DNA from: Synergistaceae bacterium
GTDB taxonomy: Bacteria > Synergistota > Synergistia > Synergistales > Aminobacteriaceae
Assembly (NCBI GenBank): GCA_017540085.1
Contig: JAFYBQ010000026.1
Span: 1-64,000, forward strand
Reading direction: 5' to 3'
DNA: 64,000 bases
Part shown: positions 282-2,671 of the stretch, piece after piece
Layout of the letters: the number at the start of each line of letters is the position of its first letter
Numbering within the stretch: position 1 is the stretch's first letter
Position numbers and translations under genes: made by a program
Notes under the pieces: generated by a model
The model's database searches: none
Seen by the model: the letters and a program-made list of their open reading frames with translations, nothing else
Told to the model about the DNA's origin: nothing

Positions 282-1058
282 CTATTTCCCGTCAGCAAGC
301 ACTAAAACGACTTCCTGATTCGCGTCATAGGGCTTCGTGAAATCCATAGTCTTCAATCTCTCTTCAGTTATCGCCAGCGCGGAGCATATCATATCTACCC
401 TTCCTGACTCTAACGCTTCCGGGAGCGCGTCAAACCTGTAATCCACAATCACAAGCTCTTTGTCGAGCCTCTTCGCGATTTCGGCGCACATCTCTATGTC
501 GATTCCCACAAAGCCGTCCGCTAATCTCTCTTCATACGGAGGGAATGAGGCCGCACACCCTACCCACAATTTTCCGTTCTTTGCGCCGGGATTCATGTCG
601 ATATTCGCCGGATCTGGGTCATCATCGAGATATTTCGCCATGATTCCCGCGAGAGTCTTATCGGCTATTATCGCGTCAAGTGCTTGGTCGACCTCTTCAC
701 GCAACGGATTCCCCTTCTTGAAGGCTATAGCGTAGTATTCGCTCTCTACAGGCTCAGAAAGTATCCTAAACTCCGTGCTGCCTATCGCAAAATACCGTGC
801 AGGGGATTCGTCCATGACAGCCGCGTCAATGTCTCTGCTTCTGAGGGCTGAAATGATGTCGCTGATTGTTGCGTAGGGGATGACTTTGCCGGAGTCGCCG
901 CTTACGATTTCAGCCGCAAGATATTCCGAGACTGAGCCGGAAAGCACTCCGAGTTTTGCTGACTTGATGTCGCTGACTGATGACACTGCCGCATATGCCG
1001 CGCCCGATAATATTATGACGAGGCATAACACTGCGGACAGCTTAAAGATTTGTTTCAT
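282..1058 (-). CDS. amino-acid-type ABC solute-binding protein with permuted halves
   Basis: Secreted 258-residue protein with a signal peptide (about residues 1-23, ending AAYA). It is built from both halves of the SBP_bac_3 family (periplasmic amino-acid binding), but in the reverse order. Residues ~29-144 match the part that normally follows the first hinge (SDIKSAKLGVLSGS through IMAKYL, the usual C-terminal end). Residues ~163-258 match the normal N-terminal lobe, including the family signature GFVGIDIEMCAEIAKRL at 182-198 and the FDALPEALESGRVDMI stretch. An Asp/Pro/Asn-rich linker (~145-162) joins old C- to old N-terminus. The total length fits one complete domain. ATG has AAAGGAG upstream. 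No permease or ATPase is adjacent. It ends with TAG. Confidence 0.75.
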   Translation of the reverse strand: MKQIFKLSAVLCLVIILSGAAYAAVSSVSDIKSAKLGVLSGSVSEYLAAEIVSGDSGKVIPYATISDIISALRSRDIDAAVMDESPARYFAIGSTEFRILSEPVESEYYAIAFKKGNPLREEVDQALDAIIADKTLAGIMAKYLDDDPDPANIDMNPGAKNGKLWVGCAASFPPYEERLADGFVGIDIEMCAEIAKRLDKELVIVDYRFDALPEALESGRVDMICSALAITEERLKTMDFTKPYDANQEVVLVLADGK

Positions 1059-1081: not shown

Positions 1082-1489
1082 TTACCTGAAAAGCTCGCGG
1101 AAAAATCTATCTAGTGCTTCCTGGTCTCGCCTTCTCTTTTCCCTGCGCTCATATTCTAGGCGTTCCTGTTCGGTGTAATAGCGTTCGCGTTCTCGGCGTT
1201 CGTATTCGTGGCGTTCGCGCTGAAGCTCTCGGAGTTCCCTGCGGTCGCGTTCTCTCTGTTCGCGTTCCCGGCGTTCGCGCTCGAAGCGTTCTCGGTCTCT
1301 GCGTTCACGTTCGCGGCGTTCCTGTTCCCAGCGTATTTGGTCGCGGCGTTCACGTTCGCGGCGTTCGCGTTCCCATCTTGCTTGGTCATCGCGCCTAATA
1401 AGGCCATAGGCAGACGCTGTATTAGCTGAAGCACTGAATACCGTCAGCCCAGACAAAAGCCCGGCGGCGATTATCTTTCTCATGTTCAC
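1082..1489 (-). CDS. secreted Arg/Glu-rich low-complexity protein
   Basis: 135 residues: a signal peptide (about 1-27, ending ANTASA) followed by roughly 100 residues made almost wholly of Arg and Glu in RERERRD/REQERRERE-like units, with sparse Tyr, Trp and Asp. Such E/R alternation usually forms a long charged single alpha helix. The GTG at 1489 has GGGAG about ten bases upstream; an ATG two codons later is the alternative. The signal peptide and the hydrophobic/charged layout support it as a real gene although composition alone would be weak. No catalytic domain is visible. Function unknown. Confidence 0.55.
   Translation of the reverse strand: MNMRKIIAAGLLSGLTVFSASANTASAYGLIRRDDQARWERERRERERRDQIRWEQERRERERRDRERFERERREREQRERDRRELRELQRERHEYERRERERYYTEQERLEYERREKRRRDQEALDRFFRELFR
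1130..1390. repeat. degenerate short tandem repeat coding the Arg/Glu tract
   Basis: The plus strand repeats variants of GCGTTCGCGTTCTCGGC in 6- and 12-base steps. Several other frames stay open across it, giving spurious ORFs on both strands. Confidence 0.6.
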
Positions 1490-1609: not shown

Positions 1610-2671
1610 TTACAGGCGGGAAATTATTTCGTCCCTCATCTTTGAGCCTGTGATTAACGTTGTGCCTTCCGTGAAAATATCCGGCGTTCTCAGTCCTGCC
1701 TTCAGTACATCGTCAACAGCCTTCTCGATTCTGTCAGCCTCGCTCATCATTCCGAACGAATGACGCAGCATCATAGCCCCGCATAAAATTGTGCCGATGG
1801 GATTGGCTTTGTCCTGCCCGGCAATGTCAGGCGCAGAACCGTGAATAGGCTCATAGAGTCCGCGATTGTTGTCGCCGAGACTCGCGCTGGGAATCATTCC
1901 GATTGAGCCGACAATCTGACTCGCCTCGTCCGACAGAATATCGCCGAAAGTATTTTCCGTAACAATAACGTCAAACTCATTCGGGACTCGTATAAGCTGC
2001 ATTGAAGCGTTGTCGACATAAAGGTGATTGAGCTTGACTTCGGGATATTCTTTCGCGACATCCTCGACAATTTCGCGCCATAATCTTGACGACGTGAGAA
2101 TGTTTGCTTTGTCGACTGACGTAACAATCTTGCGGCGGTTCATTGCCATCTTGAATCCAACGTGAGCGATACGGCGTATTTCGTGCTCTGTGTACTCCAT
2201 GACATCGCGGGCTGCCTTTTCGCCGTCTGGTGTCGTGAAGGCTTCGTGCTTACCGAAATATATTCCTCCTGTGAGTTCGCGCACTATGATGAAGTCGATA
2301 CCTTTTTCGGCGATGTCCTTGCGTAACGGACAAGCGGAGGCGAGCGGGGCAAAAATTTTTGCGGGTCTGATGTTCGCAAAGACTTTGAGTCCTTTTCGCA
2401 CGCCCAAGAGTCCGCGTTCGGGGCGAATCTCAGGGGGAACGTTGTCCCATTTCGGGCCGCCGACAGCACCGAGTAATGTTGCGTCTGCGTTCTGGCAAAT
2501 CTTGAGGCTTTCAGCGGGGAGGGGTTCGCCGTATTTGTCGATGGCATTGCCTCCCATTGCGACCTCTTGAAAGTCAAACGCACCGGGGGCAACTTTCTCG
2601 ATGACTTTCAGAGTCGCGCCGATAACTTCAGGGCCTATACCGTCTCCGGGGATTACTGCGATTTTCTTCAT
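1610..2671 (-). CDS. leuB: 3-isopropylmalate dehydrogenase
   Basis: Converts (2R,3S)-3-isopropylmalate to 2-oxoisocaproate (via decarboxylation) with NAD+, third step of leucine synthesis, cytoplasmic. 353 residues, normal family length. It opens MKKIAVIPGDGIGPEV, carries the RELTGGIYFGKHE substrate loop, the YVDNASMQL motif, and the NTFGDILSDEASQIVGSIG signature of isocitrate/isopropylmalate dehydrogenases, then the GLYEPIHGSAPDIAG dinucleotide-binding loop. AAGGAG precedes the ATG. It lies about 0.9 kb downstream of leuD but is separated from it by a convergent gene and a terminator, so it must be transcribed separately from leuA-leuC-leuD. Confidence 0.97.
   Translation of the reverse strand: MKKIAVIPGDGIGPEVIGATLKVIEKVAPGAFDFQEVAMGGNAIDKYGEPLPAESLKICQNADATLLGAVGGPKWDNVPPEIRPERGLLGVRKGLKVFANIRPAKIFAPLASACPLRKDIAEKGIDFIIVRELTGGIYFGKHEAFTTPDGEKAARDVMEYTEHEIRRIAHVGFKMAMNRRKIVTSVDKANILTSSRLWREIVEDVAKEYPEVKLNHLYVDNASMQLIRVPNEFDVIVTENTFGDILSDEASQIVGSIGMIPSASLGDNNRGLYEPIHGSAPDIAGQDKANPIGTILCGAMMLRHSFGMMSEADRIEKAVDDVLKAGLRTPDIFTEGTTLITGSKMRDEIISRL

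Follow-up and report, generated by a model that had tools for sequence, protein, structure and literature searches.

A circularly permuted SBP_bac_3 solute-binding protein conserved among Synergistaceae

Introduction

The SBP_bac_3 proteins (PF00497), with GlnH/GlnBP of E. coli, LAO and ArgBP as canonical members, are among the best-studied families of binding proteins and are related to the ligand cores of glutamate receptors. The ligand clamp of GlnBP comprises two residues, R75, which contacts the alpha-carboxylate of the bound amino acid, and D157, which contacts its alpha-amino group. In the canonical chain, lobe 1 comes before lobe 2.

Other classes of binding protein include natural permutants. 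Tp0684/MglB-2 of Treponema pallidum (Type Ic / Cluster Bc) is a naturally permuted binding protein of an ABC importer and still binds its ligand (PMC4990184). For the glycine betaine-binding protein OpuAC of B. subtilis (2B4L), a 2008 study described a circular permutation relative to type II proteins such as ProX, the molybdate-binding proteins and CysB (PMC2395249). In the GlnPQ importer, substrate-binding domains (SBDs) are joined in tandem to the permease (PMC8025302). The open-access literature on circular permutation in solute-, substrate- and amino-acid-binding proteins yielded TpMglB-2 (PMC4990184), OpuAC (PMC2395249) and engineered proteins as cases of permutation, and none for SBP_bac_3.

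Here, we analyzed a gene in a window of 64,000 nucleotides (contig JAFYBQ010000026.1) from a Synergistaceae bacterium, whose genome (G000) measured 2.17 Mb and was 99.8% complete. The features of the locus are given in Table 1.

Table 1. Features of the permuted SBP gene and of its upstream neighbor (window coordinates).
Feature	Position	Strand	Basis or remark
Circularly permuted SBP_bac_3 protein	282..1058	minus	258 aa; profile and pairwise matches, relatives
Sec-type signal peptide, residues 1-23 (MKQIFKLSAVLCLVIILSGAAYA)	990..1058	minus	Sequence; low pLDDT in the model; putative cleavage site
Lobe 2 and C-terminal helices of the canonical fold, now N-terminal, residues 27-144	627..980	minus	Profile matches
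Linker from old C-terminus to old N-terminus, residues 145-160 (DDDPDPANIDMNPGAKNGK)	579..626	minus	Alignment; pLDDT about 83-96
Lobe 1 and family signature, now C-terminal, residues 161-254; last element is the first hinge strand	297..578	minus	Profile matches
Asp83, equivalent of GlnBP D157	810..812	minus	Profile alignment; invariant in 29 sequences
Arg234, equivalent of GlnBP R75	357..359	minus	Profile alignment; invariant in 29 sequences
Gene of a small exported Arg/Glu-rich protein, co-directional	1082..1489	minus	23 bp upstream of the SBP gene

Results

Lobe order and position of the cut

In the Pfam scan, the window protein matched PF00497 with 102.5 bits (cut-off 26.4) in two separate stretches, the best of which placed residues 166-256 on profile positions 3-93. 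The phmmer comparison with 4zv1 (AncQR) aligned residues 161-252 with positions 9-102 of the chain (i-E 1e-13) and residues 24-143 with positions 108-230 (i-E 1e-8). The C-terminal part of the query thus matched the N-terminal part of 4zv1 and vice versa, which indicated that the lobe order was reversed. The PF00497 search of the whole genome located lobe 1 (profile 3-95) at C26:285-563 and lobe 2 (profile 46-131) at C26:624-869, both on the minus strand; since lobe 1 occupied the lower coordinates on this strand, lobe 2 comes first in the protein. The canonical order was therefore absent, and the length of the protein was that of one domain plus a single signal peptide. Judged by its sequence, the protein is a permuted variant of SBP_bac_3 and not a standard member. 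An earlier note on this DNA had already described swapped SBP_bac_3 halves, and the Pfam profile, the 4zv1 comparison and the genome search all led to the same outcome. The single signal peptide, the linker and the one-domain length were also found as it had described them, and the minus-strand location is an addition to it.

In the profile alignment of E. coli GlnH, lobe 1 ended at precursor residue 116 and lobe 2 began at residue 125. This would place the new termini of the permuted protein in the loop that directly follows the first hinge strand. The large lobe contains both of the old termini, and a stretch of about 16-19 ordered residues would bridge them without leaving that lobe. Going by the canonical fold, a single covalent crossing between the lobes would be left, with the other hinge strand forming the C-terminal tail.

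Binding site

Profile alignment assigned R75, D157, F13 and F50 of GlnBP to R234, D83, F172 and F209 of the window protein, so that both clamp residues were present. The equivalents of T70, G68 and D10 were all Ala in the window protein; T70 and G68 were kept in its two close paralogues in the genome, which were permuted alike and 41-44% identical to it. Because the four equivalents were kept and R234 and D83 were invariant in 29 sequences, the ligand is likely an alpha-amino acid; because of the three Ala residues, the affinity or the ligand may have changed.

Predicted fold

The AlphaFold2 model, built on the 29-sequence alignment, was one compact domain (pLDDT 90.0, pTM 0.83) with a well-ordered linker. 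When the model was compared with the VIA entries by a sequential aligner, the top four entries were all OpuAC (Z 13.3-14.5, 205-210 residues), and the best match extended over the whole domain (Z 14.5, 207 residues, 4.1 A). The best matches were type II SBPs, and no type I protein was among the VIA rows shown. The canonical amino-acid SBPs reached Z of at most 12.5 over about 172 residues at low identity; these matches probably arise because the internal pseudo-symmetry lets lobe 2 superpose on lobe 1. As a control, a canonical SBP from the same phylum (L260) was modeled (pLDDT 86.4), and its matches to GlnBP-type structures reached a Z of 29.7 over 216 residues at 1.7 A.

Since OpuAC (2B4L) has been reported as a circular permutant (PMC2395249), the topology of the model is one already known from a permutant. 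The match is one of topology, and common ancestry is a separate matter. The Pfam and NCBIfam scans listed no model of the OpuAC sequence family for the window protein at E<=1.

Neighboring genes and transporter partners

No permease or ATPase gene was located beside the window gene, and the same held for the L002 type. The L003-type paralogue had HisM/GlnP-like permease and ATPase genes directly downstream; this SBP and its permease (70% identity or more) co-occurred on the same contigs in 45 of 45 genomes, and the next permease of that family was only 43% identical. Orphan SBPs that draw on a shared permease are common. The window protein would share a permease encoded elsewhere, possibly the one at C37:127238-128038. 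The cleft of the window protein would close around an amino acid, with R234 and D83 as the clamp, and the ligand would then pass to a HisM/GlnP-type ABC importer.

In most loci of the window type, the gene of a small exported Arg/Glu-rich protein was situated 13-54 bp upstream of the SBP gene. Its product in the window was of low complexity. Further along, a run of 12 C (2756-2767) was observed between leuB (1610-2671, minus strand) and an ORF at 2818.

Conservation among relatives

Every one of the 43 genomes of the genus had the permuted order, as did genomes from four more genera of Synergistaceae (five in total); altogether, it was present in 50 of the 188 genomes of the phylum. The named loci belonged to rumen Synergistaceae, Fretibacterium MAGs and the complete genome of Fretibacterium fastidiosum (NC_021038, L157). 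Among 29 aligned permuted proteins, 28 columns were invariant. In the scan of genome contigs, the best 80 of 486 matches came from Synergistaceae/Synergistales alone. The viral contigs searched contained no relatives, and no match in the plasmid collection covered 80% of either query; both collections contain few chromosomes of anaerobes. Because the order recurs in all relatives, chance is excluded as its cause. The swapped order is apparently an old, working design common to dozens of related bacteria of the rumen and mouth.

Divergent SBPs, fusions and arrays

Nine more divergent permuted SBPs (272-307 aa, lobe 2 first) were detected in the genome. Four of them shared one operon with permease and ATPase genes (L254:628-6852, contig C21), and the other five were on contigs C7, C36 and C37. 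The genome thus contained 12 stand-alone permuted SBPs versus about four stand-alone canonical ones. One further SBP_bac_3 domain of canonical order formed the C-terminus of a sodium/alanine-type (AGCS-like) symporter (L025:5193-7445, contig C11), whose gene was followed by that of a hybrid histidine kinase.

The permuted lobes were also found in tandem. A protein of 2260 aa (L021:5644-12426; C6:22643-29425) had eight lobe2-lobe1 units in addition to its signal peptide and a permease domain, and an ATPase gene followed. Its relatives contained 1, 2, 6, 7, 8 or 12 permuted units, the largest having 3249 aa and 12 units (L270:3857-13606). Permease fusions with a single unit were found in further genera as well as in a different family of the order, one of them a chain of 899 aa that combined permuted SBP, permease and ATPase (L264:1995-4694; G063, contig C6). 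The arrays began with lobe 2 after the signal peptide and had equal counts of lobe 1 and lobe 2. In 20 arrays, the lobe2-to-lobe1 linker measured 17.9 +/- 0.8 residues (n=88, 65 of exactly 18) and had a common motif of the form GxDxSxxxxxDYsxLP, whereas the lobe1-to-lobe2 linker measured 14.3 +/- 4.5 residues (range 5-26, n=67) and was not conserved (permutation p 5e-5, with instances from related arrays not fully independent). A canonical tandem would fix the lobe1-to-lobe2 linker as a hinge; since it varied, each array looks like a series of permuted domains.

Phylogeny

The tree built on reordered lobes had three clades of permuted sequences: the single permuted SBPs (100/99), the arrays together with most fusions (97/91), and the divergent set (100/99). 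The canonical proteins fell between these three groups; one common origin of all permuted sequences was not rejected (p-AU 0.128). Tandem duplication followed by loss of the outer halves is a plausible route to the permuted SBP. The complete arrays, all with equal lobe counts, included no intermediate of such a route, and the tandem arrays of this genome were already in the permuted phase and separate from the single permuted SBPs in the tree.

Discussion

The window gene was interpreted as an intact, exported, circularly permuted Venus-flytrap binding protein of the SBP_bac_3 type for an alpha-amino acid, with a probability of about 0.86. Four lines of evidence support the circular permutation as the earlier note had read it: the order of the sequence, orthologues that share this order, the fold of the model and, for the sister (L003) type, the operon context. 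It is a real and conserved permutation, of a kind known in other SBP classes and found without a report for SBP_bac_3 in the open-access literature. The note had called for a structure prediction, which gave a compact domain with OpuAC as the best sequential match, and for orthologues of identical lobe order, which were found throughout the genus and in F. fastidiosum.

Two other accounts of the lobe order were considered. Because the genome holds tandem arrays of the same lobes, the ORF could be the middle of a truncated or mis-assembled lobe1-lobe2-lobe1-lobe2 protein that lost its ends and its function. However, it has its own signal peptide and a full one-domain length, its residues are strongly conserved, the swapped order recurs in independent genomes, one of them complete, and the sister-type operon is conserved in 45 of 45 genomes. 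The arrays themselves start with lobe 2 and are balanced in their lobes. An additional upstream half, which the earlier note had named as evidence for truncation, was absent from the window locus and from its relatives. Truncation or assembly error was thus rejected as the identity of the protein and is extremely improbable. An intertwined, domain-swapped dimer, in which the lobe 2 and lobe 1 that pair come from different chains, is also quite improbable. Such a dimer is compatible with a monomer prediction, but the monomer model is compact and confident, the linker is ordered and conserved, and the single-unit permease fusions and the constant linker within array units fit pairing in cis.

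A different question is whether the permuted protein in the window still serves transport, or whether this paralogue has become a scavenger or sensor acting with the Arg-rich exported protein encoded upstream. The proximity of that gene in most loci of this type, the lack of a nearby permease or ATPase and the changed pocket residues are in line with such a role. On the other hand, R234, D83, F172 and F209 are kept, the protein has no sensor domain, and orphan SBPs frequently work on a common permease; a departure from transport therefore seems unlikely. By analogy with GlnBP, import is likely for the permuted family and less certain for the window paralogue.

Compared with canonical SBP_bac_3 proteins, the permuted SBPs have both lobes homologous in sequence, the same clamp Arg and Asp and, in the L003 type, the same HisM/GlnP-type permease and ATPase partners. 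The lobe order is opposite, and the control from the phylum aligned with GlnBP from end to end, whereas the window protein did not. OpuAC has its structural elements in the same sequential order as the window protein, at 12-14% identity and with a different ligand. As the lobes here are homologous in sequence to SBP_bac_3, the two permutations look independent. Tp0684/MglB-2 is likewise a natural permutation of an ABC-importer binding protein, but it has a type I (Cluster B) sugar-binding fold permuted within the N lobe, and its permutation appears to add a hinge crossing, whereas one would be removed here. The linkage of SBDs to the permease in GlnPQ resembles the permuted arrays; however, the two SBDs of GlnPQ are in canonical order, as in the E. 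faecalis example L268, and the arrays have 1-12 permuted units per chain.

We speculate, with more doubt than confidence, that part of the Synergistota uses the permuted flytrap as its main amino-acid module, that the permutation arose repeatedly or arose once and then spread, and that it is tied to concatenation. If so, tethering at the hinge would leave both lobes free, so that one permease chain could carry up to 12 permuted domains and a permease dimer about 24.

A natural and functional-looking permutation with one crossing fewer would make it possible to test directly to what extent the closure of the flytrap and its docking rely on the topology of the chain, and the permuted arrays on a permease point to an importer of unusual design and to a possible use of the permutation. 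Rumen and oral Synergistota ferment amino acids (PMC12366334), and the finding may be relevant to amino-acid uptake by these bacteria as well as to the design of biosensors.
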